IMG/VR virus record: IMGVR_UViG_3300042463_000956
Location: 1-64,000 of that record
Strand: one strand, 5' to 3'
Length of the DNA stretch: 64,000 bases
DNA from: a virus
In this document: positions 1 to 46,906 of the stretch, one piece after another
Position numbering within the stretch: the first letter of the stretch is position 1
Layout of the letters: each line of letters opens with the position of its first letter
Program-made: the position numbers and the translations under genes
The notes under the pieces: model-generated
What the model was told of the DNA's origin: nothing
The model's database searches: none
What the model saw: only the letters and a program-made list of their open reading frames with translations

Positions 1-1
1 A

Positions 2-1498
2 GGTATAGGTAGTTTAACTAAAAAAGTATTAGGTGTTTTTGGTTATACCGATGAAGCAATGGAGGCTGTTGCTAAAAATGTTGATGTTGACGTTATTGTT
101 AAAAATGGTATTGACACTTTAGAAACAACAGCTAGAAAACAAGGTATCGATATTGCAAACGCTAGTGAAGATCAATTACTTAAATTATTTGACGAATCAC
201 CATCGTTAAAAAATGAAATTGAGACTTTATATCGAAAAGCAACAAAAGATGTGGCTGATAAATTAATTGCTAATCTAGGTATTTTACCTTCGGAAATTAC
301 CACTTTAGTTACACAAGCGACAGCAATTAAACTACATCCATCTATGGCACAAAGAGCTTCAGACCTTTATGGTGATATAGGAACAAGATTAGATAATTTA
401 ATCGATGAAACACAAAAAACTGGTAAACAAATACCAAAAGAATTACAAGAATTAAAAGATTTGATTACAGCTAAACAAATTGAAGCTGACGAAATGGTTA
501 ATTTTAAAACAAAAAAACCAAGTAACGTTAGTCAAAATATATCTAAAAATGTTAGCTCTGAAGCTGACCCACAAGCTTATTTAAAAAACTTATCTTACGA
601 TCAATTAGCAACTAAGTTAGATTATAATACCGGTTGGGTTTCAAATGGGATATCACCAAAAATTATGAGTGGCTGGAAATTTCATGTTTTTGGCGAAGAT
701 TTAGTAGATAGTGTTTTTCTTAAAGAAAAACTATGGCCAGTAACACAAAAGTGGAATGCAGGTGCTAAAGTTGGTGGTATTAAACATACAGATGGTGTAA
801 CATATCCTAGTATGCAACCAGGCGGAGTTCAATATGGAAAACAAGGCGCTACAATTTATATACCTGTTGATGTTATTAATAGTGGAAAACAACAAGAAAT
901 GTTATCCGACATACAAAATGCAATTGCTGGTTATAAAAAAGGTGGTAACATTTCTGGAGATCAAGCAATAACACCGTCTATCCATTATAGATACGAATTA
1001 TTAGGTCCAGTACCAAAAGAAGGTATTGATATGAAAACATACGATGTAATGTATAACAAAAATTCAGGAGGACCATATAAACCAGATGATGTTGAAGATT
1101 TGTTTACGAAAAAATTAGGTGGTGACCAAGGTTCAAATATTGCTAAGCCGCAAAATCTTGTTAGTACAGGATTTTTAGGGTCAAAGTTTGGAGATACAAG
1201 TGATATAAATTGGGGCTCGATAACAAATGCTAAGGATATAAAACGCTATGACGATCTTATTGATGAAGCAATGAAATCAGGGAACTTTAATTCAATATCG
1301 AGAGGTGGGTTTGAAGCATATGGTATCCCAAATTTTAGAGAATATTTAATGAATATTTATAATAAAGAAAAAGGAGTTACTTCTAATTCACAAACACCAA
1401 TAAATATAAATAGACCAAAAGAAGGTCCAAGTAATTGGTCGGACTATCAATACCCAAATAGAGGAAATAACCCATATTATGGTTCAGGTTCAAATTAA
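2..1498 (+). CDS. Putative internal head protein with a LanKC/OspF-lyase-like domain (5' partial)
   Basis: The reading frame is open from base 2, so the gene begins before the window; the first in-frame ATG (59) is not the true start, because codons 2-58 match residues 27-45 of the paralogue at 3567-4946. Residues 1-150 (numbered from ATG 59) are a helical domain shared with that paralogue. After a linker, residues 200-315 look like a separate domain: WKFH at 206-209, a GKQGATIYIP strand near 260-269 and HYRYELLG at 309-316. This order resembles the N-terminal lyase-like domain of class III/IV lanthionine synthetases, which is related to OspF/SpvC phosphothreonine lyases. That match is from memory of the family pattern and is tentative. 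The paralogue carries a capsid-targeting-like N-terminus, so this protein probably does too. Confidence 0.6.
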   Translation, partial: GIGSLTKKVLGVFGYTDEAMEAVAKNVDVDVIVKNGIDTLETTARKQGIDIANASEDQLLKLFDESPSLKNEIETLYRKATKDVADKLIANLGILPSEITTLVTQATAIKLHPSMAQRASDLYGDIGTRLDNLIDETQKTGKQIPKELQELKDLITAKQIEADEMVNFKTKKPSNVSQNISKNVSSEADPQAYLKNLSYDQLATKLDYNTGWVSNGISPKIMSGWKFHVFGEDLVDSVFLKEKLWPVTQKWNAGAKVGGIKHTDGVTYPSMQPGGVQYGKQGATIYIPVDVINSGKQQEMLSDIQNAIAGYKKGGNISGDQAITPSIHYRYELLGPVPKEGIDMKTYDVMYNKNSGGPYKPDDVEDLFTKKLGGDQGSNIAKPQNLVSTGFLGSKFGDTSDINWGSITNAKDIKRYDDLIDEAMKSGNFNSISRGGFEAYGIPNFREYLMNIYNKEKGVTSNSQTPININRPKEGPSNWSDYQYPNRGNNPYYGSGSN

Positions 1499-3566: not shown

Positions 3567-4946
3567 ATGAAAAATAAAGGAAATTTACTAGTTGAGGTTA
3601 ACCGAATCAGAGAAATGATGGGGTTAAATTTAATTATGGAACAAGGTATAGGTAGTTTAACTAAAAAAGTATTAGGTGTTTTTGGTTATACCGATGAAGC
3701 AATGGAGGCTGTTGCTAAAAATGTTGATGTTGACGTTATTGTTAAAAATGGTATTGACACTTTAGAAACAGCAGCATTAAAAAAAGGTATTGATATTGCA
3801 AACGCAACTGAAGATCAATTACTTAAATTATTTGACGAATCACCATCGTTAAAAAATGAAATTGAAACTTTATATCGAAAAGCGACAAAAGATGCTGCAG
3901 ATAAATTAATTGCTAACACACCAACGGGTATTTTGGGTGTGGAAATTACTAATTTAATTACAAGAGCAACCGCAACTAAATTACACCCGTCAATTGCACA
4001 AAGAGCTTCAGACCTTTATGGTGATATAGGAACAAGCTTAGATAGAGTAATTAATCAACTTCAAAGACAAGGTACTCCAGTACCAAAAGATTTACAAGAG
4101 TTAAGAGATTTGATTACAGTTAAACAGCTTGAAGCTGACGAAATGGTTAATTTTAAAAGGCCAACTAGTGCTCCAGGTGGTTTTAAACCAGATCCAGGTG
4201 GTGTTAAAGTTGATGACCCACAAATACCTGGTAAGAAATATCAAGTAGGTATGGATCCTGAATTTGATTCTGCTTTTGATTTTGGTCTTAGTTCGGCAGC
4301 ATTTAAATTAAGTGATGAACAATCTGATAAACTTAGACAAGTTTTATATAATATATACAAACAAGGTAATTTAACTCTAACACAATTTTATAAGCAATTT
4401 GAAGATTTAGGACAAAAACTAGCTAAGTCTTCAGATGAAAGAACTGCTTCTTTTGGTAGAAAAATTTTAAATTTACTTAAAAAAGTTGCTGGTGCTTGTG
4501 GTAAAGACCTTAAAATAACGATTAAAACATTATGGATTGCACCTAGTTGTGCTTTAGGTTTTTGGGGTTTACTTACCGCCTTATCTTTGGGTGGTGATAT
4601 TATTGGTATAGATAATAATTTTTGGAAAGGTTTGCCTTGCGCTTTTGGGTCAATAGTTGAAGGTATTGGTGGTGATGGTGAACTACAAGGTTTTTGGAAA
4701 GATATGTGTGATGGTGGAGGTAAATTCTGGGAAAGTGATAACACTTCTAAAGAACCAAAAATAGAGGACGCTAAAGCTTGGATTGGCACTTTAAATGGTG
4801 TTGGTGAAGATTTAGAAGGTTTGTCTGTTACAGATCTTAAAAAGGACCCAAATGGTGTTAAAAATATGTATATAGCAACATTATCTGATGGTAGATCACA
4901 AAAACTATTATGGGACCCAACAACAAAAAATTTCACACCGCAATAA
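3567..4946 (+). CDS. Putative internal head protein, paralogue of the gene at 2-1498
   Basis: A 459-residue protein. The N-terminus (MKNKGNLLVEVNRIREMMGL, then I-M-E|Q at 23-26) fits the capsid-targeting pattern. Residues 27 to about 200 are nearly identical to the first gene of the window, and the DNA is identical for about 130 bases, so the duplication is recent or is being homogenised. The C-terminal half is unrelated to the paralogue: a helical stretch, a cysteine-containing hydrophobic segment around 310-345, and a short C-terminal domain ending in a strand-rich region. The pair therefore looks like one delivery module joined to two different C-terminal domains. An ATATTTAT motif ends exactly 14 nt before the ATG. 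Confidence 0.62.
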   Translation: MKNKGNLLVEVNRIREMMGLNLIMEQGIGSLTKKVLGVFGYTDEAMEAVAKNVDVDVIVKNGIDTLETAALKKGIDIANATEDQLLKLFDESPSLKNEIETLYRKATKDAADKLIANTPTGILGVEITNLITRATATKLHPSIAQRASDLYGDIGTSLDRVINQLQRQGTPVPKDLQELRDLITVKQLEADEMVNFKRPTSAPGGFKPDPGGVKVDDPQIPGKKYQVGMDPEFDSAFDFGLSSAAFKLSDEQSDKLRQVLYNIYKQGNLTLTQFYKQFEDLGQKLAKSSDERTASFGRKILNLLKKVAGACGKDLKITIKTLWIAPSCALGFWGLLTALSLGGDIIGIDNNFWKGLPCAFGSIVEGIGGDGELQGFWKDMCDGGGKFWESDNTSKEPKIEDAKAWIGTLNGVGEDLEGLSVTDLKKDPNGVKNMYIATLSDGRSQKLLWDPTTKNFTPQ

Positions 4947-9514: not shown

Positions 9515-9588
9515 GGTCCCGTAGCTCAGCTGGATAGAGCAACTGCCTTCTAAGCAGTAGGTCTTTGGTTCGAATCCAAACGGGATCA
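9515..9588 (+). tRNA. tRNA-Arg(TCT)
   Basis: Acceptor GGTCCCG pairs with CGGGATC. The anticodon stem-loop ACTGC-CTTCTAA-GCAGT gives TCT. The T loop is TTCGAAT. CCA is not encoded. A second tRNA-Arg(TCT) occurs at 11760. Confidence 0.93.
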
Positions 9589-9601
9589 CTAAAAAAATAT
9601 T

Positions 9602-9715
9602 ATGGAAGACATATTTGAACAAATACATAATGAATTTATAAATTCCGAAGATTATTTTTCATATCTTCAAGATATTTATTCTTATGAAGAAAAAGATAAG
9701 ACTAACGGAATCTGA
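9602..9715 (+). CDS. Small acidic protein (37 aa)
   Basis: An ATG-started frame of 37 codons, rich in Glu, Asp and Tyr, beginning MEDIFEQIHNEF. Its 3' end overlaps the start of the gene at 9684 by 32 bases in another frame, which suggests translational coupling. Codon use matches neighbouring genes. Function unknown. Confidence 0.4.
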   Translation: MEDIFEQIHNEFINSEDYFSYLQDIYSYEEKDKTNGI

Positions 9716-10121
9716 ATTAATAAGACTTATTAAAAGGATTATTGAAGAAGAAAAGTACTCCGAAGAAGATATCAAGTACACCCACCCAATGACAGGTGAA
9801 GCCTGTAAAATCAAAGTTGCCAGAAATAAACTTACAAGTATGGAATTTAACCAATATGGGTCAATTCTTGTTTGTGTTGATGAAGAATATGGTGATGATA
9901 GAATTGAAGCTGAACTTCCAGTAAATGGAAGTACATCAGAAGAAGTTAGTGATTTTATATGTGAAAACTTAGAAAGGACATTTGAACTTTTAGATGATAT
10001 GTTAACTTACGAAGAAGAAGAACCAATATCAGAAGAAGTTTATAGTCAAAGGTGGGATATAATAGACCAACCAATTGTTTGTACAGACAAACCAAAAAAG
10101 AAAAAAAGTTGGGAATATTAA
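9684..10121 (+). CDS. Acidic small protein with capsid-targeting-like N-terminus
   Basis: A 145-residue protein that begins MKKKIRLTESELIRLIKRII and then has E-E-E, so the I-x-E site has its Glu at position 22, as in four other small proteins of this window. The rest is acidic and mixed alpha/beta, ending in a lysine run. I do not recognise the body. By the shared N-terminus I infer packaging in the head and trimming by the prohead protease. Alternatively the motif is a general interaction helix. Confidence 0.6.
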   Translation: MKKKIRLTESELIRLIKRIIEEEKYSEEDIKYTHPMTGEACKIKVARNKLTSMEFNQYGSILVCVDEEYGDDRIEAELPVNGSTSEEVSDFICENLERTFELLDDMLTYEEEEPISEEVYSQRWDIIDQPIVCTDKPKKKKSWEY

Positions 10122-10130
10122 TAAAAACAC

Positions 10131-10160
10131 TTGTTTATTAGAAAAAAATACCTATCTTTG
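10131..10160 (+). promoter_or_regulatory. Bacteroidota-type promoter
   Basis: TTG at 10131-10133, 19 bases, then TATCTTTG at 10153-10160. This is the TTG-N19-TAnnTTTG form of the primary sigma factor of Bacteroidota. It would drive the short RNA at 10166-10378. Confidence 0.7.
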
Positions 10161-10165
10161 TAACA

Positions 10166-10378
10166 GAAATTAAAACTTTTAGAAATAACGATATACTTAT
10201 AATAAAAAATGAAAACAAATCTTAGACATATGGTCATTAGCAAGCAACCGAGCAATCAGTGGTCGTTCTGCTATAATACGCTTAAACCGTCTAGGGCATT
10301 TTCATTTATGAGTTAATAACGATTAACCAACATAATAAAGGAATATAAGACCCAAGGCAACAAACCTTGGGTTTTTTG
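10166..10378 (+). ncRNA. Short terminated transcript, ncRNA or leader peptide
   Basis: It lies between a clear promoter and a strong terminator (CCCAAGG/CCTTGGG plus a T run, 10350-10378). It contains one 35-codon frame (10209-10316, MKTNLRHMVISKQ...), but that frame uses codons such as CCG, TCG, ACG and AGC that are rare in the neighbouring genes, so a structured RNA is more likely than a peptide. Function unknown. Confidence 0.4.
10350..10378 (+). terminator. Rho-independent terminator
   Basis: Stem CCCAAGG (10351-10357) and CCTTGGG (10365-10371), followed by a run of six T. Confidence 0.85.
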
Positions 10379-10388
10379 TTTTATACCT

Positions 10389-10460
10389 GCTCTGTAAGCA
10401 TTGATGGCGATGCGCTTGACTTGTAATCAAGAAAAATCAGTTCGAATCTGGTACGGAGCT
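10389..10460 (+). tRNA. tRNA-Thr(TGT)
   Basis: Acceptor GCTCTGT/ACGGAGC; anticodon stem-loop CTTGA-CTTGTAA-TCAAG gives TGT; T loop TTCGAAT. No encoded CCA. Confidence 0.9.
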
Positions 10461-10471
10461 CAAAAGAAAAA

Positions 10472-10480
10472 GTTCTTTGA
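10472..10480 (+). promoter_or_regulatory. boxA-like element
   Basis: GTTCTTTGA followed by CATATT, 16 bases before tRNA-Gln. The same nonamer occurs at 13518, 14121, 20329 and, on the minus strand, at 22914-22922, each time in or just before a stable RNA. It resembles the rRNA antitermination boxA. Confidence 0.5.
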
Positions 10481-10496
10481 CATATTGGCCTTATAA

Positions 10497-10567
10497 TGTT
10501 CCCTCGTCTAATGGCAGGACACGCGGTTTTGGTCCGTGGAATCGAGGTTCGAGTCCTTGGGGAACAA
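10497..10567 (+). tRNA. tRNA-Gln(TTG)
   Basis: Acceptor TGTTCCC/GGGAACA; anticodon loop TTTTGGT between CGCGG and CCGTG gives TTG; T loop TTCGAGT. Confidence 0.92.
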
Positions 10568-10576
10568 CAATAAATT

Positions 10577-10665
10577 GGAAGTCTAATTTAGCCGGCGCTA
10601 AACCTAGTCTTGAAAACTAGTGGTACTGAAACACGTATGGGGATCGACACCTCAGGCTTCCTCCA
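10577..10665 (+). tRNA. tRNA-Ser(TGA)
   Basis: Acceptor GGAAGTC/GGCTTCC; anticodon stem-loop CTAGT-CTTGAAA-ACTAG gives TGA. It has a long variable arm, and CCA is encoded (10663-10665). The T loop is ATCGACA. Confidence 0.9.
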
Positions 10666-10674
10666 AAAAATAAC

Positions 10675-10743
10675 GAGTGTGTGGTGTAATGGTTGCACAG
10701 GATGTTTGGGACATTCGGGAGACGTTCGATTCGTACACATTCG
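10675..10743 (+). tRNA. tRNA-Pro(TGG)
   Basis: Acceptor GAGTGTG/CACATTC; anticodon stem-loop GGATG-TTTGGGA-CATTC gives TGG. The T stem is weak (about 3 pairs), so the molecule may be somewhat degenerate. Confidence 0.75.
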
Positions 10744-10803
10744 ACTAACAAATAAACAAATAAAAACAAGTGTTATGGAAAGTGACAAGTATGACAAACA
10801 AAA

Positions 10804-10876
10804 CCCCTCGTAGCTTAATCGGGAAAGCACCATACTTTTAATATGGGGAGAGTCGGATCGTAACCGGCCGGGGGGA
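10804..10876 (+). tRNA. tRNA-Lys(TTT)
   Basis: Acceptor CCCCTCG/CGGGGGG; anticodon stem-loop CCATA-CTTTTAA-TATGG gives TTT; T stem GTCGG/CCGGC. Confidence 0.92.
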
Positions 10877-10884
10877 CAAAAAAT

Positions 10885-10914
10885 TTGGTAGATTAAAAAA
10901 AAGTATTATCTTTG
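10885..10914 (+). promoter_or_regulatory. Bacteroidota-type promoter inside the tRNA cluster
   Basis: TTG at 10885-10887 and TATCTTTG at 10907-10914, spacing 19. The block TTTGGTAGATT...TATCTTTGTAA recurs at 13638, 14070 and 14823. It reads directly into tRNA-Tyr. Confidence 0.75.
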
Positions 10915-10923
10915 TAAAAATAA

Positions 10924-11004
10924 GGAAGTGTTGAGCATTTGGCTGGCTCGCTTGACTGTAAATCAAGTCCGAAAGGCGTGTAGGTTCGACCCCTACCACT
11001 TCCA
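10924..11004 (+). tRNA. tRNA-Tyr(GTA)
   Basis: Acceptor GGAAGTG/CACTTCC; anticodon stem-loop CTTGA-CTGTAAA-TCAAG gives GTA; long variable arm; T loop TTCGACC. Confidence 0.93.
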
Positions 11005-11012
11005 CAACAAAA

Positions 11013-11087
11013 GGACAAGTAGCTCAGAGGCAGAGCAACGAGCTGTTAACTCGAAGGTCATAGGTTCGACCCCTATCTAGTCCGCCA
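11013..11087 (+). tRNA. tRNA-Asn(GTT)
   Basis: Acceptor GGACAAG/CTAGTCC with one A-A mismatch; anticodon loop CTGTTAA gives GTT; T loop TTCGACC. The 3' CCA is encoded (11085-11087). Confidence 0.88.
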
Positions 11088-11088
11088 A

Positions 11089-11189
11089 AGATACAATGTT
11101 GGGCTCCCCGTAGTGGTAACGTCTTAAGTAAGTAGACCACAAGAATCTAGTAAGAAGTGACAGATGGGTTCGTCACGACTAAAGTATCT
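11089..11189 (+). ncRNA. Closed structured RNA between tRNAs (unknown)
   Basis: A 101-base segment bounded by AGATAC and GTATCT, which pair end to end. Inside are GGG/CCC, GTCT/AGAC and GTGAC/GTCAC hairpins. It sits where a tRNA would be expected, but I cannot find a T arm or an anticodon arm. It would be released by processing of the flanking tRNAs. Confidence 0.4.
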
Positions 11190-11193
11190 AATT

Positions 11194-11266
11194 GTTCACG
11201 TAGCTCAATTGGTAGAGCGCCGATCTGATACGTCGGAGGTAATGGGATCGTAACCCGTCGTGAACA
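11194..11266 (+). tRNA. tRNA-Ile(GAT)
   Basis: Acceptor GTTCACG/CGTGAAC; anticodon stem-loop CCGAT-CTGATAC-GTCGG gives GAT; T loop ATCGTAA. Confidence 0.93.
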
Positions 11267-11270
11267 CTAC

Positions 11271-11354
11271 GGAAGATAAACCTTGATGGAGATAGGGTCC
11301 ACCTGCTAAGCGAGATGTACCTTCGGGTATTTGGCTCGATTCCAATATCTTCTT
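11271..11354 (+). tRNA. tRNA-Ser(GCT), imperfect anticodon stem
   Basis: Acceptor GGAAGAT/ATCTTCT, long variable arm with TACC-TTCG-GGTA, and a loop CTGCTAA giving GCT. The anticodon stem TCCAC/GCGAG has two mismatches, and the T stem is only four pairs. Exact ends are uncertain by one base. Confidence 0.62.
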
Positions 11355-11360
11355 CAACTT

Positions 11361-11430
11361 GCCGATAGAAAAGGTTTTCGGTCCGGGCTCATATCCTGGA
11401 TGTCATTGGGTTCGATACCCTTTATCGGTA
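11361..11430 (+). tRNA. tRNA-Met(CAT) or tRNA-Ile2(CAT)
   Basis: Acceptor GCCGATA/TATCGGT; anticodon stem-loop CCGGG-CTCATAT-CCTGG gives CAT. It lacks the three consecutive G-C pairs in initiator arrangement seen in the CAT tRNA at 14442. Lysidine modification to read ATA cannot be excluded. Confidence 0.85.
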
Positions 11431-11438
11431 CTTATATG

Positions 11439-11511
11439 GTGTATGTAGCTCAGTTGGTAGAGTGCTGGATTGTGATTCCAGAGGTCGTGGGATCGTGACC
11501 CATCATACACA
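11439..11511 (+). tRNA. tRNA-His(GTG)
   Basis: Acceptor GTGTATG/CATACAC; anticodon stem-loop CTGGA-TTGTGAT-TCCAG gives GTG. Confidence 0.93.
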
Positions 11512-11517
11512 CAATAT

Positions 11518-11589
11518 ACCTTCGTAGCTTAATGGAAAAGCCTCAGAATACGAATCTGATGATTGGGAGTTCGACCCTCTCCGAAGGTA
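11518..11589 (+). tRNA. tRNA-Arg(ACG)
   Basis: Acceptor ACCTTCG/CGAAGGT; anticodon stem-loop TCAGA-ATACGAA-TCTGA gives ACG; T loop TTCGACC. A wobble A34 needs an A-to-I editing enzyme (TadA), presumably from the host. Confidence 0.9.
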
Positions 11590-11590
11590 C

Positions 11591-11755
11591 AAAAGATGAT
11601 AAAAGGCGTAGAACAACGGACACGGAGAGGTGTTCGCAAGGGTGCAAACTAAGGATAGGTATTCAATCTTAATTGTATTGATGTAATAACCCGACTCTCT
11701 AATGGTGTGTGAAGTATAATTACGGGATTCCTGATAAAGTTGTTCATCATCTTTT
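11591..11755 (+). ncRNA. Closed structured RNA between tRNAs (unknown)
   Basis: A 165-base segment bounded by a perfect 10-bp helix, AAAAGATGAT with ATCATCTTTT. It contains GGACAC/GTGTTC-type and CCCG/CGGG pairings and no credible reading frame. It lies between tRNA-Arg(ACG) and tRNA-Arg(TCT) with 1 and 4 bases to spare. Not a tRNA and not a terminator; function unknown. Confidence 0.45.
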
Positions 11756-11759
11756 ATTT

Positions 11760-11831
11760 GCCCCTTTCGTATAATGGAAGTACAACACTCTTCTAAGGTG
11801 TCAGGTCGGAGTTCGAGTCTCTGAGGGGGTA
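11760..11831 (+). tRNA. tRNA-Arg(TCT), second copy
   Basis: Acceptor GCCCCTT/AGGGGGT; anticodon stem-loop ACACT-CTTCTAA-GGTGT gives TCT. The sequence differs from the copy at 9515, so it is not a recent duplicate. Confidence 0.9.
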
Positions 11832-11869
11832 CGGATCCGATGTCGGTCCCGAGCTAGGTCGGGCAATTT

Positions 11870-11940
11870 ACGTGGTACAGACAGGGCGTCGGGCAGGTCT
11901 CCAAAACCTCGCCGGGTAGGTTCGATCCCTACACCACGTG
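11870..11940 (+). tRNA. tRNA-Trp(CCA)
   Basis: Acceptor ACGTGGT/ACCACGT; anticodon loop CTCCAAA gives CCA; T stem GTAGG/CCTAC. The anticodon stem has one mismatch at its base. Confidence 0.88.
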
Positions 11941-11949
11941 CTAAAATAA

Positions 11950-12022
11950 GGACAGGTAGCTCAGTTGGTAGAGCTCAGGATTGAAGATCCTGGAGTCGGG
12001 GGTTCGACACCCTCCCTGTCCA
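11950..12022 (+). tRNA. tRNA-Phe(GAA)
   Basis: Acceptor GGACAGG/CCTGTCC; anticodon stem-loop CAGGA-TTGAAGA-TCCTG gives GAA. Confidence 0.94.
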
Positions 12023-12044
12023 CAAACAATTAAAATTAACTAAA

Positions 12045-12500
12045 ATGAACAGAGTTTTTAGAACGGTTAATGGTGTTGCAATACCAGATGTGGTTAATCA
12101 CACTTTGGGTGTTCTAAAAGAATGTCCCTGGGTGGAAGTCCACATTGGGACTGACTCACAAAACCACAGAAGATCAACCGTGTATGTTACGGTGATAGCG
12201 TATAGGTATGGAAATAGAGGTGTTCATTATATTCTTCACAAACAAAAAGTGAAAAAAATAAAAGATAAATGGACACGTCTTTGGAATGAGGCCGATTATT
12301 CAATTGAGGTTGCCGAATGGTTAACCCAGAAAGTAAAAGTAAAAGTTGAAATTGACTTGGACTTTAATAGTGATGAAAAACATTTCAGTTCAAAACTGGT
12401 TCAACCAGCTGTTGGGTGGGCGACATCCTTGGGGTATAAAACAAATATAAAACCCCATAATCAAATTGCAACAAAAGCGGCAGATTACCACTGCCGTTAA
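12045..12500 (+). CDS. RNase H-like protein (DUF458/YkuK-type)
   Basis: A 151-residue protein with VEVHIGTDSQ at 30-39 followed by a VYVTVIAYRYG strand pair, the arrangement of the YkuK (DUF458) branch of the RNase H fold; D37 would be the first catalytic acid, and further acids lie in EIDLDFNSDEKH near 113-124. Members occur in bacteria and phages, and their substrate is not established. The gene lies inside the tRNA cluster, between tRNA-Phe and tRNA-Cys, with no promoter of its own visible, so it may be co-transcribed with the tRNAs. A role in RNA processing is only a guess from the context. Confidence 0.65.
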   Translation: MNRVFRTVNGVAIPDVVNHTLGVLKECPWVEVHIGTDSQNHRRSTVYVTVIAYRYGNRGVHYILHKQKVKKIKDKWTRLWNEADYSIEVAEWLTQKVKVKVEIDLDFNSDEKHFSSKLVQPAVGWATSLGYKTNIKPHNQIATKAADYHCR

Positions 12501-12507
12501 TATATTA

Positions 12508-12578
12508 GCTCAGGTGGCCGAGGGGTTAGGCACCGGTCTGCAAAACCGAGTACGGGGGTTCAAATCCCTCCTTGAGCT
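12508..12578 (+). tRNA. tRNA-Cys(GCA)
   Basis: Acceptor GCTCAGG/CTTGAGC with discriminator T, as is usual for Cys; anticodon loop CTGCAAA gives GCA; T stem GGGGG/CCCTC. Confidence 0.9.
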
Positions 12579-12587
12579 CAACAAAAT

Positions 12588-12667
12588 GCCCCTGTGATGG
12601 AATGCAGACATGCTGGTTTTAGACACCAGTGCCGAAGGGTGTGAGAGTTCAAGTCTCTCCGGGGGTA
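12588..12667 (+). tRNA. tRNA-Leu(TAG)
   Basis: Acceptor GCCCCTG/CGGGGGT; anticodon stem-loop CTGGT-TTTAGAC-ACCAG gives TAG; variable arm present; T loop TTCAAGT. Confidence 0.92.
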
Positions 12668-12684
12668 CAAAACTTATTATCAAT

Positions 12685-12692
12685 ATATTTAT
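12685..12692 (+). promoter_or_regulatory. Putative late promoter motif
   Basis: ATATTTAT ending exactly 14 nt before the ATG at 12707. The same 14-nt spacing is found at 3545-3552, 40783-40790 and 42253-42260. Confidence 0.5.
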
Positions 12693-12706
12693 ATTAAAAT
12701 GTTGAT

Positions 12707-13045
12707 ATGAAAAAAATTATAAGACTAACAGAATCAGATTTAGCTCGTATTGTTAAACGAGTAATCCAGGAAGGAAATATTGAAAAATCATCAAAGGAAA
12801 AAGACCTTGATGTTAAGATGGAAAATTTCCGAGATAAAATAAAAGATTTTTTAAAATCTAAAGATTGTAAAGTAAAACAAGTTGGAACCGATTTTGAGGT
12901 TCATTGTGATGGAGAACACGTAGGTCAAGTTATGTTTAGAAGAAATGCTATTACAGTAAAAAAAGAAGGTAGTAGGTTTGGAAAAGATTTTAAATTTAAC
13001 GAAATGGGTGATATTAAAGCTGAATTATCAAAAATGTTAAAATGA
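12707..13045 (+). CDS. Small protein with capsid-targeting-like N-terminus
   Basis: A 112-residue protein starting MKKIIRLTESDLARIVKRVI, then Q-E|G, so the predicted cut is after E22. The remainder is a small lysine-rich domain with a CDGEHVGQVMFRR hairpin-like segment. The stop overlaps the start of the next gene (ATGA-type, 4 bases), which has an almost identical N-terminus; 40 or more bases of DNA encoding the helix are shared between the two. Function unknown; head packaging is inferred. Confidence 0.65.
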   Translation: MKKIIRLTESDLARIVKRVIQEGNIEKSSKEKDLDVKMENFRDKIKDFLKSKDCKVKQVGTDFEVHCDGEHVGQVMFRRNAITVKKEGSRFGKDFKFNEMGDIKAELSKMLK

Positions 13046-13326
13046 AAAAAGTAATCAGACTAACAGAATCAGATTTAGCTCGTATTGTTAAACGAGTAAT
13101 TCGGGAAAACGAAGAAAACAAATTTGACTTCTATATGGAAGAACTAGGTGAATTTGCAAATAAACTTGATTGGGAAGGTCTTGATATTGAAAGTGAGGAA
13201 ATGGAATATTTTGTTGATGACATATATCAGATAGTTTATGACGCAAAACAAGATGATACTTTATCTAAAGACGAAATTTCTCACATTGAAGGATTTGCTA
13301 TGGGTATTGTTAGTAGATTAGATTAA
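13042..13326 (+). CDS. Small acidic protein with capsid-targeting-like N-terminus
   Basis: A 94-residue protein starting MKKVIRLTESDLARIVKRVI, then R-E|N (E22). Its body is acidic and helical and unrelated to that of the upstream gene, so the shared helix behaves as a portable tag. Coupled to the upstream gene by a 4-base overlap. Function unknown. Confidence 0.65.
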   Translation: MKKVIRLTESDLARIVKRVIRENEENKFDFYMEELGEFANKLDWEGLDIESEEMEYFVDDIYQIVYDAKQDDTLSKDEISHIEGFAMGIVSRLD

Positions 13327-13393
13327 AAAATTAAATAAAACTTGACACTTTTAAAATTATTAGTATATTTATAAAAAAATTAAAAAACCGCAA

Positions 13394-13462
13394 ATGAAAA
13401 ATTTACACATATCATTGATAGGAGGCGATTTAGCTGAGGATTCTTTCAAGGAGAGGGTGTAA
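13394..13462 (+). CDS. Possible 22-residue peptide in a short terminated transcript
   Basis: The frame MKNLHISLIGGDLAEDSFKE... ends before a strong terminator (13489-13518). Upstream are TTGACA (13344) and a TATATTTAT block. The codon pattern is compatible with coding, but the segment could equally be a small RNA of about 140 bases that contains GGAGGCGA and GGAGAGGGTG purine stretches. Confidence 0.3.
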   Translation: MKNLHISLIGGDLAEDSFKERV

Positions 13463-13488
13463 TATTTTATACATATAAAAATTTTGAA

Positions 13489-13518
13489 GCCCCTCTCTAA
13501 AAAAGAGGGGTTTTTTTG
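13489..13518 (+). terminator. Rho-independent terminator
   Basis: CCCCTCT (13490-13496) pairs with AGAGGGG (13504-13510), followed by seven T. Confidence 0.85.
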
Positions 13519-13526
13519 TTCTTTGA
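13518..13526 (+). promoter_or_regulatory. boxA-like element
   Basis: GTTCTTTGA followed by AATATT, 16 bases before tRNA-Leu(TAA), directly after the terminator T run. Confidence 0.5.
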
Positions 13527-13542
13527 AATATTGGTGAATAAT

Positions 13543-13625
13543 GGTCCGATGTTGGAATTGGTATACAAGACAGACTTAAAATCTGTTACCCATTGGGTGT
13601 GAGGGTTCAAGTCCCTCTCGGACTA
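13543..13625 (+). tRNA. tRNA-Leu(TAA)
   Basis: Acceptor GGTCCGA/TCGGACT; anticodon stem-loop ACAGA-CTTAAAA-TCTGT gives TAA; variable arm ACCCATTGGGT; T loop TTCAAGT. Confidence 0.93.
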
Positions 13626-13637
13626 CAAAAAATAAAT

Positions 13638-13668
13638 TTGGTAGATTAAAAAATTATTTATACTTTTG
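13638..13668 (+). promoter_or_regulatory. Bacteroidota-type promoter, leaderless spacing
   Basis: TTG (13638-13640), 20 bases, TACTTTTG (13661-13668), then 4 bases and the ATG of the gene at 13673. Confidence 0.7.
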
Positions 13669-13672
13669 TTTT

Positions 13673-13978
13673 ATGATAACATTTAAGGATATAGAGTTTA
13701 GACAACATAATGCTGGTGAAGGATCACAAGGGTTGATTTTTTTTCCTGGTGGATACGGACTTTCTGTTGTTAGATTTAAACATCCTTATAGTACCAGATA
13801 TTCGTCTTACACAGATGATAAAACCTGGGAGGTTGCAATTTTAAAAGGAACAAAAAATCATTGGGATATCTGTTATGATACAGAACTAACAAATGATGTT
13901 TTGACTTTCCAAACAGAAGAAGATATAAATAAAATAATTAAACACGTTCAAAGACTATATAACGATGAAAACAATTGA
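13673..13978 (+). CDS. Small hypothetical protein
   Basis: A 101-residue mixed alpha/beta protein with a GSQGLIFFPGGYGLSVVRF beta-hairpin-like region and conserved-looking Trp residues near the C-terminal half. I do not recognise the family. It has its own host-type promoter, with only 4 nt between the -7 element and the ATG, so its mRNA is probably leaderless. Its end overlaps the start of the small gene at 13965. Confidence 0.6.
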   Translation: MITFKDIEFRQHNAGEGSQGLIFFPGGYGLSVVRFKHPYSTRYSSYTDDKTWEVAILKGTKNHWDICYDTELTNDVLTFQTEEDINKIIKHVQRLYNDENN

Positions 13979-14081
13979 GATTACATATCAGGAGATTAAG
14001 ATGGCAACAAGACCAAATGTGTATCGTAATAAAAAAAAATACACAAGAAAAGAAAAGTTTAAAAAAGATTTGGTAGATTGA
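13965..14081 (+). CDS. Small basic protein (38 aa)
   Basis: MKTIEITYQEIKMATRPNVY... followed by a lysine-rich tail. The ATG overlaps the previous gene by 14 bases. The 3' end contains the TTTGGTAGATT part of the next promoter, so the promoter starts inside the gene. A nucleic-acid-binding role would fit the charge but is not shown. Confidence 0.4.
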   Translation: MKTIEITYQEIKMATRPNVYRNKKKYTRKEKFKKDLVD

Positions 14082-14100
14082 AATAAAATACATATCTTTG
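14070..14100 (+). promoter_or_regulatory. Bacteroidota-type promoter
   Basis: TTG (14070-14072), 20 bases, TATCTTTG (14093-14100). It would start an RNA that enters a boxA-like element (14121) and two structured segments before a tRNA. Confidence 0.75.
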
Positions 14101-14120
14101 TAAAACAAATAAGGAAAAGG

Positions 14121-14129
14121 GTTCTTTGA
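14121..14129 (+). promoter_or_regulatory. boxA-like element
   Basis: GTTCTTTGA followed by AATATT, about 15-20 bases after the expected transcription start. Confidence 0.5.
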
Positions 14130-14142
14130 AATATTAAAAATA

Positions 14143-14224
14143 AAAATCACGGGTGGCTCCCTTAATAGTTAAGGCTGACCTTAAGCATCTGACGTATGTC
14201 TATACAGGGGGTGAAAGTGATTTT
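14143..14224 (+). ncRNA. Cloverleaf-like structured RNA, not a tRNA
   Basis: AAAATCAC (14143-14150) pairs with GTGATTTT (14217-14224). Three hairpins lie inside: GGG-TGGCT-CCC, TTAAGG-CTGA-CCTTAA (14169-14184) and GTAT-GTCT-ATAC (14194-14205). This is a four-way junction of tRNA size, but no T loop or recognisable anticodon arm is present. Confidence 0.45.
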
Positions 14225-14230
14225 AAAATA

Positions 14231-14323
14231 TTGTGGTTGTAAGAAACGGGAAACTCGTAAAGTGTATCAACCTGTTAAATCAAGATAGTGAAACGAGAGT
14301 TTGATTTAACTACTGAACTACAA
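14231..14323 (+). ncRNA. Closed two-hairpin RNA (unknown)
   Basis: TTGTGGT (14231-14237) pairs with ACTACAA (14317-14323). Inside are GGTTG/CAACC and a long hairpin GTTAAATCAA/TTGATTTAAC. It lies directly between the cloverleaf-like RNA and the unusual tRNA-Leu, in the same transcription unit. Confidence 0.42.
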
Positions 14324-14328
14324 AAAAC

Positions 14329-14438
14329 AGTCAAGTGGCGGAATTGGTAGACGCTGGGAGATAATACTCAAAACTCCTTGGGGTAAGGTGATTTTCACAT
14401 TTATCTCGTGATAGGTTCGAATCCTTCTTTGACTACCA
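14329..14438 (+). tRNA. tRNA-Leu-like, 13-nt anticodon loop
   Basis: Acceptor AGTCAAG/TTTGACT, encoded A-CCA (14435-14438), a leucine-type D arm (GGCGGAATTGGTAGACGC) and a long variable arm (GGTAAGGTGA with TCACATTTATC). The anticodon stem GGGAG/CTCCT encloses ATAATACTCAAAA, 13 bases instead of 7. The last seven, CTCAAAA, would give anticodon CAA. Six bases appear to be inserted; whether the RNA is functional is unclear. Confidence 0.6.
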
Positions 14439-14441
14439 TAT

Positions 14442-14513
14442 TGCGGGGTAGAGCAGTGGTAGCTCGGCGGGCTCATAACCCGTAGGTCGCAGGTTCGAAT
14501 CCTGCCCCCGCAA
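14442..14513 (+). tRNA. tRNA-fMet(CAT), initiator-like
   Basis: The anticodon arm GGGCTCATAACCC has the three G-C pairs of initiator tRNAs, and the D arm GAGCAGTGGTAGCTC fits. The acceptor TGCGGGG/CCCCGCA has a T1-A72 pair instead of the C1xA72 mismatch typical of bacterial initiators. Confidence 0.88.
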
Positions 14514-14520
14514 CTAAAAT

Positions 14521-14601
14521 GCTGACGTACCAGTGGATGCTTATATCATCTATGCCTGTAGTGGTAAGTTTAAAACGTTGGTTCGAATCCAACCGTCAGT
14601 A
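14521..14601 (+). ncRNA. tRNA-like RNA with abnormal body (possible Ile TAT)
   Basis: Acceptor GCTGACG/CGTCAGT and T arm GTTGG-TTCGAAT-CCAAC are canonical. Between them a helix TACCA (14528-14532)/TGGTA (14562-14566) encloses a hairpin TGGATG-CTTATAT-CATCTA. No D arm is found in the usual place. The hairpin loop would read TAT (Ile, ATA codons), so it may be a D-arm-deficient tRNA or a tRNA-like RNA. Confidence 0.5.
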
Positions 14602-14607
14602 CAATAA

Positions 14608-14680
14608 GCGGAAGTAGCTCAATTGGTAGAGCTCCTGCCTTCCAAGCAGGTGGTTGAGGGTTCGAGTCCCTTCTTCCGCT
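14608..14680 (+). tRNA. tRNA-Gly(TCC)
   Basis: Acceptor GCGGAAG/CTTCCGC; anticodon stem-loop CCTGC-CTTCCAA-GCAGG gives TCC. Confidence 0.94.
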
Positions 14681-14707
14681 CAAAAAATAAACGAGTAAAA
14701 AGAATAA

Positions 14708-14839
14708 ATGATGGAAAATATGGTTTTATCAGGAACTTCAGAATCATCAAAAGTTAAATTTGTTAAGACTAATTTTAAATCTGATTTTGCAAAAACATTA
14801 AAGAAAAAACTTAAAAAAAGATTTGGTAGATTAAAATAA
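14708..14839 (+). CDS. Small basic protein (43 aa)
   Basis: MMENMVLSGTSESSKVKFVK..., ending in a lysine/arginine-rich tail (KKRFGRLK). As with the gene at 13965, its 3' end carries the TTTGGTAGATT segment of a promoter that fires the following RNA genes. Between tRNA-Gly and tRNA-Glu. Function unknown. Confidence 0.4.
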   Translation: MMENMVLSGTSESSKVKFVKTNFKSDFAKTLKKKLKKRFGRLK

Positions 14840-14853
14840 ACTAACTATCTTTG
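14823..14853 (+). promoter_or_regulatory. Bacteroidota-type promoter
   Basis: TTG (14823-14825), 20 bases, TATCTTTG (14846-14853), 17 bases before tRNA-Glu. Confidence 0.75.
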
Positions 14854-14870
14854 TAAAACCAAATTAAAAC

Positions 14871-14942
14871 GGTCTGTTCGACAAGGGGTTAAGTCGTCGC
14901 CCTTTCACGGCGAAGTCACGGGTTCGAATCCCGTACAGACTA
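14871..14942 (+). tRNA. tRNA-Glu(TTC)
   Basis: Acceptor GGTCTGT/ACAGACT; anticodon loop CTTTCAC between CGCC and GGCG gives TTC; T loop TTCGAAT. Confidence 0.92.
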
Positions 14943-14951
14943 CAAAATTTT

Positions 14952-15027
14952 GGCTCTATGGTTGAATGGCTACAATACCGCCCTGTCACGGCGTGTGGTA
15001 CGGGTTCGAATCCCGTTAGAGCCGCCA
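14952..15027 (+). tRNA. tRNA-Asp(GTC)
   Basis: Acceptor GGCTCTA/TAGAGCC; anticodon loop CTGTCAC gives GTC; CCA encoded (15025-15027). Confidence 0.92.
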
Positions 15028-22133: not shown

Positions 22134-22460
22134 ATGAAAAGAATAATTAGATTAACTGAGTCGGATCTTACAAGAATTATAAGACGTGTAATTATGGAGG
22201 GTAATTTAAAAGTTGGTGAAATAGTTAAAGTGACAGATGGTTTTGGTACTTTGGAAATTGAAATTGATGAATCCACTCCTAATGGATACCAAGGAATAAT
22301 TGTTGACCATTCTGGTGATTTTGGTGTAAGTAGTAAACAGGTAAAAATGTCAAATATCGCAATTGGAAATTTGGCAACAATTAAAATGATTGATGATAGT
22401 AATGTTAGTGTTACTTTATCTGATACATATAAAAAATCAGTAAAAGCTAAAATCAAATAG
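22134..22460 (+). CDS. Small beta-rich protein with capsid-targeting-like N-terminus
   Basis: 108 residues starting MKRIIRLTESDLTRIIRRVI, then M-E|G (E22). The remaining 86 residues look like a compact beta-barrel (LKVGEIVKVTDGFGTLEIEI ... GIIVDHSGDFGVSSKQV), reminiscent of small SH3/KOW-type folds, without a firm assignment. Flanked by the two copies of the 58-base repeat. Packaging in the head is inferred from the N-terminus. Confidence 0.62.
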   Translation: MKRIIRLTESDLTRIIRRVIMEGNLKVGEIVKVTDGFGTLEIEIDESTPNGYQGIIVDHSGDFGVSSKQVKMSNIAIGNLATIKMIDDSNVSVTLSDTYKKSVKAKIK

Positions 22461-24828: not shown

Positions 24829-24855
24829 AAGGAGGGTTTTAATCCTCCTTTTTCT
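24829..24855. terminator. Bidirectional terminator between convergent genes
   Basis: AGGAGG pairs with CCTCCT, with A runs on one side and T runs on the other, between the M20 peptidase and the ClpC-like gene. Confidence 0.75.
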
Positions 24856-33062: not shown

Positions 33063-33392
33063 ATGAAAAAAATAATTAAATTAAGTGAAAATGATTTAGT
33101 AAAAATTATAAAAAAAGTTATTACTGAAAGTAAGGACTATACAACATTGTATTCACATGCTCTAACAAATAAAAATAATGAAAAATTTATAGTAAACAAA
33201 AGCACAATTTGGAAAAATAAAACTATAAATAATGAACAAGTTTGGTTAGGACCTAAAGGTTTATTTTTTACTTGTTCTGGATTAACACCTAGTAGTTTTG
33301 AGGAAGAAGATACATATTCACCTAAAAATATAAGTAAAATGTCTGGTTCTAAATCTTTGGTTTCTGTTATGAAAGAAAAACTTTGTAAATAA
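33063..33392 (+). CDS. Small protein with capsid-targeting-like N-terminus
   Basis: 109 residues starting MKKIIKLSENDLVKIIKKVI, then T-E|S (E22). The body is a small basic domain with two cysteines and Trp residues (IWKNKTINNEQVWLGPKGLF). Unknown function. Follows the acidic virion protein by 10 bases, so probably in the same late unit. Confidence 0.62.
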   Translation: MKKIIKLSENDLVKIIKKVITESKDYTTLYSHALTNKNNEKFIVNKSTIWKNKTINNEQVWLGPKGLFFTCSGLTPSSFEEEDTYSPKNISKMSGSKSLVSVMKEKLCK

Positions 33393-42274: not shown

Positions 42275-42991
42275 ATGAAAATTTTAGGACCAAACGAAAC
42301 TGGTAAAGGAATCCTTATCGAATATGACGCTGGATATATAAATCCAAAATCACAAAATAACCATTACATTATGGAATCTCAAAACTTCTTGGATTATTCA
42401 AAACCATTTGAGTTCTATGCCGTATTACAAAAATACGATACCCCAAATAGAAATGGTAGGGTTTATCCAGAAAAGATATTAAAAAGAGAAGCTGAGAATT
42501 ATAAAAAGATGATTGAGAAAGGAACATCCCTTTCAGAACTTAACCACCCTGAATCTTCTTTAATTGATCTTGATAGGGTATCACATATGATTACCGAAGT
42601 ATGGTGGGACGGACCAGTATTATTGGGTAAATTAAAATTACTTACAAGTCCAGGTTTTCACGAAAGAGGGATTGTATCAACAAAAGGTGATATGGCGGCA
42701 AACTATCTTAGACAAGGTGTAACACTTGGCATTTCTTCTAGAGGTGTTGGGTCACTTAAAAAAGTTGGGGAACAAAATGAAGTACAAGATGATTTTGAAT
42801 TAATTTGTTTTGATTTAGTTTCTTCACCGTCAACACCTGGTGCTTATTTATTTTTAGATAAAAATGATAGACATAAATTTGATGAGAATTTAGAAGAAGA
42901 AAAAAGAATGACCGTAGAAAGAAATGTTGGTGGATCTGGTAACAAATCTCTTGACTTAATGAAAAGATTATCCGATTATTTGGGTAAATAA
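42275..42991 (+). CDS. Prohead maturation protease (T4 gp21-like)
   Basis: 238 residues. H91 in ELNHPESS and S154/S155 in LGISSRGVGS give the His-Ser pair of herpesvirus-assemblin-type prohead proteases, and the fold markers RNGRVYPEKI and PSTPGAYL are present. It is assembled inside the prohead, digests the scaffold and trims capsid and internal proteins. In T4 the enzyme cuts after (I/L)-x-E; the LINE|A site in the capsid protein here and the N-termini of many other proteins fit that rule. Confidence 0.92.
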   Translation: MKILGPNETGKGILIEYDAGYINPKSQNNHYIMESQNFLDYSKPFEFYAVLQKYDTPNRNGRVYPEKILKREAENYKKMIEKGTSLSELNHPESSLIDLDRVSHMITEVWWDGPVLLGKLKLLTSPGFHERGIVSTKGDMAANYLRQGVTLGISSRGVGSLKKVGEQNEVQDDFELICFDLVSSPSTPGAYLFLDKNDRHKFDENLEEEKRMTVERNVGGSGNKSLDLMKRLSDYLGK

Positions 42992-45031: not shown

Positions 45032-46906
45032 ATGGGAGCATTATTAGAATCAGGTCTTGTTGGTAACATTGGGTTAAAACACCTTAAAGTTATCAAAGAA
45101 GATACAATTAACAAATGGGATAGATTAGGATTCCTAGAAGGTCTTAAAGGACATTTAAAAGAGAACGTTGCGCAGTTGTATGAAAACCAAGCGTCTCACT
45201 TAATTAACGAAGCAACTTCTGAAGGTTCAAACGGAGCTTTCGAAACTGTTGTTTTCCCTATCGTTAGAAGAGTATTCTCTAAATTATTAGCTAACGATAT
45301 CGTATCTGTACAAGCTATGAACTTACCAATTGGTAAATTGTTCTACTTCGTACCTAAAATCCAAGGATATGCTACTGACATAACTACAGGTAATGCGGTT
45401 CATTATCCACCAATTGGATCTCCAGAAGCAGTATCTGCAACTCCACCACAAAATGACCCACAACAAGGTTATAACAATGGATATCCTTACGCAAAAAATC
45501 TTTATGATTTATTCTACGAAGGTGCTGAACCAGGATTAGATCCAGGTGGATTATTTGACTATTCAAAAGGTCGTTGGTCTGCAATTACAGCTCCATCAAC
45601 AGTTGTTGTTTGGTCTAATGGTGACTTAGTTAACGCTGGTGACAATAACCCACAATATATTGGTAACACAAGAAAAGTTCTTATCAGACTTTGTGGGTGG
45701 AATAATGTACCAGGTGCAGGTAAATTAATCGGACCTGATGGAAATGAGATTGATTCTGAAACTTTCCTTTCAGATTTGAAAATCTTACCAAATTACACTG
45801 GTTTAGGTTTTGCATCTGGAAATACTTGTCCATTACCTACAGCCGCTACACCACTTTTATTTAGAGTTGTAACTCAAAAGTATGGTAAAGGAATTGTAGA
45901 ATATGGTCAACAATCACAAACTTATTTCCCTGGTGGAAGTCCTTCAGGAACTGCATCTAACACAGGTAATGGTGGATCTTTCTACGATATCTGTGATGCA
46001 AATGGTTGTATCTTCTTAGAAGTTGACCTTTCTTGTCCTGCTTGTGCTAGCTGTGGTAGCGATTCATTAGACGGATACACAGGTTCTTCTATTTCTGCAA
46101 TTACTTCTGGTACATCATTTACAGCTGTATGGAGAAGATATGAAGAACTAGAATTTGAAGAAAAAATCGGAGAAGTTTCTTTTGATTTAGAGTCTGTAAC
46201 AGTTTCTGTATCTGAAAGAAAATTAAGAGCACAATGGTCTCCAGAGCTTGCTCAAGACGTTGCTGCATTCCATAACATTGATGCTGAAGCTGAACTTACA
46301 GCATTACTTTCTGAGCAAGTTGCTGCTGAAATTGATAGAGAAATCTTGAGAGATTTGAGAAAAGGTGCTGCTTGGAACTTGAGATGGGATTACAACGGAT
46401 GGAGAAGAATTGCACAAACAACTTCTTACACTCAAAAAGATTGGAACCAAACTTTGATTACTGCAATCAACCAATTGTCTGCACAAATTCACAAATCAAC
46501 TTTGAGAGGTGGTGCTAACTGGATTGTTGTATCTTCTGAGGTTTCTGCAATCTTTGATGACTTAGAATACTTCCACGTATCTAACGCGTCTCCTGAGCAA
46601 GACCAATACAACATGGGTATTGAGAGAGTTGGTACTTTAGCTGGTCGTTACCAAGTGTATAGAGACCCTTACTTCCCACCAAACACAGTATTGTTGGGTC
46701 ACAAAGGAACGTCTTTATTAGACACAGGTTACATCTACGCACCGTATGTACCTCTACAATTGACACCTACAATGTATAACCCATTCAACTTTACACCTAT
46801 CAAAGGTATAATGACTAGATATGCGAAAAAAATGGTGAACAACAGATTTTACGCCCGTATTACTGTTGATGGTGTTCGTACATTTGATTTAAGAGAATTG
46901 AGATAA
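45032..46906 (+). CDS. Major capsid protein (T4 gp23-like)
   Basis: 624 residues. The N-terminal 60 residues form a helical delta domain ending SHLINE|ATSEGSNGAF, a maturation site at E60|A61 that matches gp23 cleavage at E65. The rest carries the HK97-type core with VVFPIVRRVFSKLLANDIVS, LPIGKLFYFVPKIQG and, near the end, TGYIYAPYVPLQLTPTMYNP and GIMTRYAKKMVNNRFYARIT, a familiar gp23 ending. The insert with several cysteines (about 320-355) is not typical of T4. Codons are less AT-biased than in neighbouring genes, as often seen for highly expressed genes. Confidence 0.95.
   Translation: MGALLESGLVGNIGLKHLKVIKEDTINKWDRLGFLEGLKGHLKENVAQLYENQASHLINEATSEGSNGAFETVVFPIVRRVFSKLLANDIVSVQAMNLPIGKLFYFVPKIQGYATDITTGNAVHYPPIGSPEAVSATPPQNDPQQGYNNGYPYAKNLYDLFYEGAEPGLDPGGLFDYSKGRWSAITAPSTVVVWSNGDLVNAGDNNPQYIGNTRKVLIRLCGWNNVPGAGKLIGPDGNEIDSETFLSDLKILPNYTGLGFASGNTCPLPTAATPLLFRVVTQKYGKGIVEYGQQSQTYFPGGSPSGTASNTGNGGSFYDICDANGCIFLEVDLSCPACASCGSDSLDGYTGSSISAITSGTSFTAVWRRYEELEFEEKIGEVSFDLESVTVSVSERKLRAQWSPELAQDVAAFHNIDAEAELTALLSEQVAAEIDREILRDLRKGAAWNLRWDYNGWRRIAQTTSYTQKDWNQTLITAINQLSAQIHKSTLRGGANWIVVSSEVSAIFDDLEYFHVSNASPEQDQYNMGIERVGTLAGRYQVYRDPYFPPNTVLLGHKGTSLLDTGYIYAPYVPLQLTPTMYNPFNFTPIKGIMTRYAKKMVNNRFYARITVDGVRTFDLRELR

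Follow-up and report, generated by a model that had tools for sequence, protein, structure and literature searches.

A predicted phosphothreonine/phosphoserine lyase domain of the LanKC/LanL type on a putative head-packaged protein of a T4-like phage

A gene cut by the start of a T4-like phage contig encodes a domain that is almost certainly related, in sequence and in fold, to the lyase domains of the lanthipeptide synthetases LanKC and LanL, and the protein that carries it may be packaged in the phage head and ejected with the DNA. Two settings are known for phosphothreonine lyases: effectors secreted against eukaryotes, and components of enzymes that tailor peptides. The stretch of DNA analyzed here (the window) comprises positions 1–64,000 of the 78,541-bp IMG/VR record IMGVR_UViG_3300042463_000956, and encodes a T4-type terminase, a gp20 portal, and a gp23 capsid protein. 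The gene in question, open reading frame (ORF) 2–1498, lacks a start codon within the window, since the contig starts inside it. Judged from sequence profiles and a structural model, the domain is likely to be an active enzyme. Packaging of the protein into the head is reasonably likely, and the whole chain of events, up to action on host phosphoproteins, has an even chance or slightly better.

On its own, the window protein gave only chance-level matches and no lyase match in Pfam, PHROGs, and the PDB, and detection therefore depended on its homologues. Iterated searches of IMG/VR yielded eight more distinct homologues (labeled L002, L003, L005, L007, L009, L016, L018, and L111), which are 48–72% identical to the window in the lyase domain, together with identical or near-identical copies of homologues (L006, L010, and L015). 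A profile of six phage sequences had LanKC structures as its top five matches in the PDB (E 0.0011–0.0077), co-linear over ~120 positions from GWK-x-H to YRY, and a profile of eight sequences gave the same LanKC result. An Ig-like protein, the top PDB match of a three-sequence profile, was repeat noise that disappeared with six sequences. Aligned by HHalign with 38 LanKC lyase domains drawn from bacterial genomes, the phage profile scored 46.7 (E 7.5e-7); none of 60 column-shuffled profiles exceeded 20.6, and the reversed profile scored 13.0. The likeness to LanKC and LanL, which an initial annotation of the window had read from motif spacing, thus goes beyond chance. The NCBIfam LanL model also matches five of the eight members (best E 3.2e-4, without reference to the model's cut-off), and Pfam RamC_N (PF25816) matches one, L009 (E 0.01). 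The OspF/SpvC effector family gave no match in the Pfam scans and is absent from the PDB profile matches, which leaves a distant kinship possible.

No homologue was found in the bacterial genomes searched with the phage profile or, beyond chance matches, in 50,697 phage records searched by tblastn with three family members. A weak tblastn match in MT835558 lies in an ORF that is amidase-like by eye and without lyase motifs, and a match in phage AugustePiccard was dismissed (E 0.6). No viral protein in BFVD matched the fold at E 0.001 or better. In IMG/VR, a search with the N-terminal body alone gave no relatives of the window protein, and PADLOC gave nothing useful. No phosphothreonine lyase in phages was found in the open literature searched; as far as that literature goes, the enzyme type is known and its phage setting appears to be new.

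The fold comparison proposed as a check in the initial annotation did not return an unrelated fold. An AlphaFold2 model of the domain, built with eight homologues, has block-average predicted local distance difference test (pLDDT) values mostly of 73–93, with 58 in a variable loop at about residues 71–80 and low confidence at the C-terminal end. In Foldseek, ranks 1–13 are all LanKC chains (E 5e-5 to 9e-4, best probability 1.00), followed by LanY, HopA1, and SpvC. VIA-align likewise places LanKC first (Z 10.5 over 153 residues, root-mean-square deviation 3.7), with LanY (8.8), VirA (8.7), SpvC (8.4), HopA1 (7.5), and OspF (7.4) also matched. Indeed, its ranks 1–23 are all phosphothreonine/phosphoserine lyases, and the next match is eIF4E (Z 6.4), which has the lyase fold without lyase activity and without the catalytic base and acid (PMC4159009). 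The kinship with OspF and SpvC that had been suggested thus holds for the fold, while the nearest relatives are the lyase domains of LanKC and LanL, with OspF and SpvC more distant.

Mutation has shown that K65, H67, K94, K117, D152, R163, and R191 of ThurKC matter for dehydration; their SpvC equivalents are K104, H106, K136, R148, D201, R213, and R220 (PMC10604976), and SpvC Y158 also takes part in the mechanism (PMC4159009). We assigned the SpvC equivalences of the phage residues by way of ThurKC, with domain residue numbering that starts at window position 578 (Table 1). HHalign aligns all seven catalytic positions letter for letter with LanKC, and the seven catalytic or phosphate-binding residues are identical in nine of nine phage homologues; for seven columns drawn at random, the probability of complete invariance is 1.5e-4 (calculated with eight sequences). 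The motifs from which the initial annotation started, WKFH (~674–685), GKQGATIYIP (836–865), and HYRYELLG (983–1006), are all in frame in the ORF. The span it had given, 600–960, holds the first two motifs; the third lies outside, and the domain reaches ~1105. To these motifs we add the catalytic lysine of AKVGG, the aspartate D128 of SGD, and a downstream GGPYKP..DLF. The last belongs to a conserved N-x-GG-x-(Y/H)-KP...D-x-F stretch, which occupies the place of the LanKC DxRxPxFxxP motif.

Table 1. Positions of the lyase gene, its predicted active site, and associated features (window coordinates unless a contig is named)
Feature	Position	Strand	Remarks
Lyase-domain ORF	2–1498	+	498 amino acids (aa) readable, 5' end missing
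N-terminal body, ~169 aa	2..508	+	82% identity to residues 27–197 of ORF 3567–4946
Predicted phosphothreonine/phosphoserine-lyase domain, LanKC/LanL type, compact	632..1105	+	PDB profile matches, HHalign, NCBIfam LanL, AlphaFold2 with Foldseek/VIA
K34, H36 of WKFH	677..685	+	= ThurKC K65/H67, SpvC K104/H106; invariant 9/9
K64 of AKVGG	767..769 (codon 767–769)	+	= ThurKC K94, SpvC K136; proposed catalytic base; invariant 9/9
K88 (GKQG), Y94 (TIYIP)	839..859	+	K88 = ThurKC K117, SpvC R148 position; Y94 = SpvC Y158 position; invariant 9/9
D128 of SGD	959..961	+	= ThurKC D152, SpvC D201; invariant 9/9
R138 of HYRYE	989..991	+	= ThurKC R163, SpvC R213; phosphate binding; invariant 9/9
NSGGPYKPDDVEDLF stretch	1061..1105	+	Invariant N, GG, KP, V, D, F; R191/R220 equivalent would be expected here
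C-terminal tail module DTSDINWGSITNAK...ISRGGFEAYGIPNFREYL	1193..1369	+	Absent from L005 and L009
ORF after lyase gene, 673 aa	1506..3527	+	Own leader ending SVIFEQ
Paralogue with intact leader ending LIMEQ	3567..4946	+	N-terminal body in common, C-terminal part different
gp21-type prohead protease (Peptidase_S77), candidate leader-removing enzyme	42275..42991	+	E 2.3e-23 and 6.7e-22
gp23-type major capsid protein	45032..46906	+	E 1.5e-73; candidate processing site after LINE, before A, by inspection
ART-like cassette	L016 5491–5922; L007 4488–4919

The lyase ORF itself has no fused kinase or LanC-like cyclase, and a search of eight phage contigs, which are fragments, revealed neither protein kinase (PF00069) nor LanC (PF05147). 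The phage domain has no obvious equivalent of ThurKC K108, a lysine of the loop that faces the kinase domain, as expected of a protein without a kinase. These absences bear on the idea that the lyase and a host kinase together introduce dehydroamino acids, which then serve to crosslink a phage or host protein or to modify it in a lanthionine-like way, so that the lyase would be a protein-maturation enzyme rather than an eraser of signals. Such a role would suit a domain that is closer to lanthipeptide synthetase lyases than to the OspF/SpvC effectors. With no kinase or cyclase in the contigs, no precursor peptide gene recognized, and the domain placed in a scaffold with a leader, we nevertheless consider it very improbable.

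Evidence for packaging comes from the leaders of the proteins. T4 gp21 cleaves after L/I-x-E, and the short leaders so cut (capsid targeting sequences, CTS) direct cargo into the head (PMC9026906, PMC5694885). Seven lyase homologues and the window paralogue at 3567 carry L/I-x-E followed by Q or S, with the Glu at residues 15–29, and the joint shuffle probability of the motif in all eight proteins is 4e-11; the leader of L111 ends in LLLE, followed by IG. Among the 40 window ORFs longer than 145 aa, an L/I-x-E site occurs within the first 42 aa in 16 and within an equal-length internal stretch in two. A gp21-type protease is encoded both in the window and in a 187-kb relative. The leader data are evidence for a class of leader rather than proof of packaging. 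Near-identical leaders of the form MKKIIRLTESDLxRIVKRVIxE occur on small ORFs on the plus strand at 12707–13045, 13042–13326, 22134–22460, and 33063–33392, and on others, and many longer window ORFs start with leader variants ending in L/I/V-x-E; leaders of this type may mark head cargo generally in these phages. Small leader-bearing ORFs are interspersed among 19 tRNA genes clustered at 9515–15027, and another adjoins a GH25 lysozyme gene (PF01183; 33447–34166, plus strand, E 1.3e-29). A 49-kb stretch of Flavobacterium phage immuto, which by its capsid protein ranks among the nearest annotated phages, showed no such leaders.

The lyase domain appears to be one of several exchangeable modules. 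By sequence, the paralogue at 3567 has the same scaffold as the lyase protein with a different cargo. Its first 26 aa form the leader MKNKGNLLVEVNRIREMMGLNLIMEQ, and judged from this 82%-identical protein, the contig starts at about the expected mature N terminus of the lyase protein. The two paralogous genes contain a direct repeat of ~510 bases (window 1–509 and 3644–4158, 88% identity); as the contig begins within the first copy, the assembly may have broken at the repeat. The N-terminal body is not detectably shared with L002, L005, or L009. In L111, the closest relative (72% identity to the window in the lyase domain), this body looks different by inspection; the lyase gene is likewise followed there by an ORF resembling the next one in the window (synteny by inspection). 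The gene upstream of the lyase gene in L002 encodes a related N-terminal body (32% over 240 residues) with a different C-terminal part. In L007, L015, and L016, an extra cassette of ~140 aa separates the N-terminal part from the lyase; the L018 protein, similar in other respects, lacks it. The cassette is 93% identical between the L016 and L007 proteins, whose N-terminal parts differ. Its likeness to an ADP-ribosyltransferase (ART) domain, ART-PolyVal (PF18760), is weak (E 0.006, 17.8 against a cut-off of 31.2 bits), and its AlphaFold2 model was unusable (pLDDT 40). Sequence comparison thus indicates exchange of N-terminal bodies, ART-like cassette, and C-terminal tails around the lyase, as we would expect of delivered effectors.

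Several observations weigh against a packaged, active lyase. The leader of the window lyase gene is itself out of view, cut by the contig start; most homologue contigs, which are fragments, show no gp21-type protease; leaders similar to those described are also found on small ORFs near tRNA genes, and may therefore serve another role; the RamC_N score of L009 is below the curated cut-off (15.8 against 27 bits); and the equivalent of ThurKC R191/SpvC R220 could not be placed, the HHalign alignment ending before that position. The unplaced arginine and the precedent of eIF4E, a non-lyase with the same fold (PMC4159009), would suit a fold kept as a binding module, such as a head or ejection component that binds phosphopeptides. 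We regard this as improbable, because every catalytic or phosphate-binding residue that could be located, seven in all, is unchanged in nine of nine divergent homologues, among them the base and acid missing from eIF4E. Alternatively, the lyase could be real but made inside the infected cell rather than packaged, to act in the course of infection, perhaps against a Hanks-type kinase defence, and the leader would have another purpose. The indirect nature of the support for packaging and the leaders on several small ORFs near tRNA genes speak for this possibility, which we nonetheless find unlikely: the gp21 motif ends the leader in every protein with a readable start, a gp21-type protease is present, and the layout of a scaffold with swapped cargo is like that of ejected internal proteins. 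The suggestion in the initial annotation of an ejected head protein has thus gained indirect support from leaders and protease.

As the best explanation of the findings as a whole we favor, with moderate confidence, a head-packaged and ejected phosphothreonine/phosphoserine lyase directed against host kinase signaling or defence. Homology, fold, active site, leader motif, and protease are computed, and activity, packaging, ejection, and target are inferred. The domain would be a stand-alone, catalytically competent enzyme of the LanKC/LanL–SpvC–HopA1 fold, and an exchangeable cargo of a T4-like phage protein. This protein would be synthesized with a short N-terminal leader and taken up into the prohead, where the phage's gp21-type protease would trim it after L/I-x-E, and it would be ejected together with the DNA. 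In the cell it would irreversibly remove phosphate from phosphothreonine or phosphoserine by β-elimination, in which K64 would take the α proton and H36 protonate the leaving phosphate, while K34, K88, and R138 hold the phosphate and Y94 and D128 assist. A host Ser/Thr-kinase pathway or kinase-based defence could thereby be switched off before phage genes are expressed. A host in the Bacteroidota is plausible, because the capsid protein has relatives in Flavobacterium phage immuto and in a Microcystis phage, among others, and Ser/Thr kinases exist in Bacteroidota, given the Pkinase match in a Bacteroides control genome. Elsewhere in the window, on the minus strand, lie genes for a Clp-like ATP-dependent protease (24839–26899; phrog_4871, E 5e-236) and a 929-aa protein with a WD40-type β-propeller match (51693–54482; THOC3, E 8.5e-16).

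If virion-borne, the lyase would mean that phages irreversibly attack bacterial protein phosphorylation at the moment of infection, and would suggest that Ser/Thr kinases matter for defence in the hosts of these phages; it would also provide a stand-alone enzyme for making dehydroamino acids. More tentatively, phages of a T4-like lineage may inject from the virion an irreversible phosphothreonine/phosphoserine eraser that disables host kinase signaling or kinase-based immunity ahead of transcription, in some lineages fused to an ADP-ribosyltransferase, as a counterpart of the type III phosphothreonine lyase effectors.

Among known systems, the phage domain most resembles the lyase domain of the class III/IV lanthionine synthetases LanKC (ThurKC, CuvL, PneKC, and SalKC) and LanL (VenL), Pfam RamC_N (PF25816), with which it shares the fold (Z up to 10.5), the co-linear motifs GWK-x-H, K, GK..TIY.P, D, and YR, and seven identical active-site residues. 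It differs from them in standing alone without kinase or cyclase, in its low sequence identity (~20%), in lacking the K108 loop lysine of ThurKC, and in falling below the RamC_N cut-off. With the effectors OspF, SpvC, and VirA, and with HopA1 and LanY, it has in common the fold (Z 7.2–8.8), the K-x-H, the base Lys, the Tyr, the Asp, and one phosphate-binding Arg; the position of SpvC R148, however, is a Lys, as in LanKC. Delivery into another cell, proposed here for the phage protein, is a further likeness to OspF, SpvC, and VirA, although these are not its nearest sequence relatives and its delivery, if any, would be by the virion and into bacteria. The T4 internal proteins and Alt, which are packaged in the head and ejected, offer a parallel for such delivery. 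A short N-terminal leader ending in L/I-x-E, a gp21-type protease, and a proposed enzymatic action immediately after ejection link the two; the enzyme is a different one, and the phage protein, whose packaging is predicted, has a large N-terminal body common to paralogues. Alt is an ADP-ribosyltransferase, and some of the phage homologues carry an ART-like domain.
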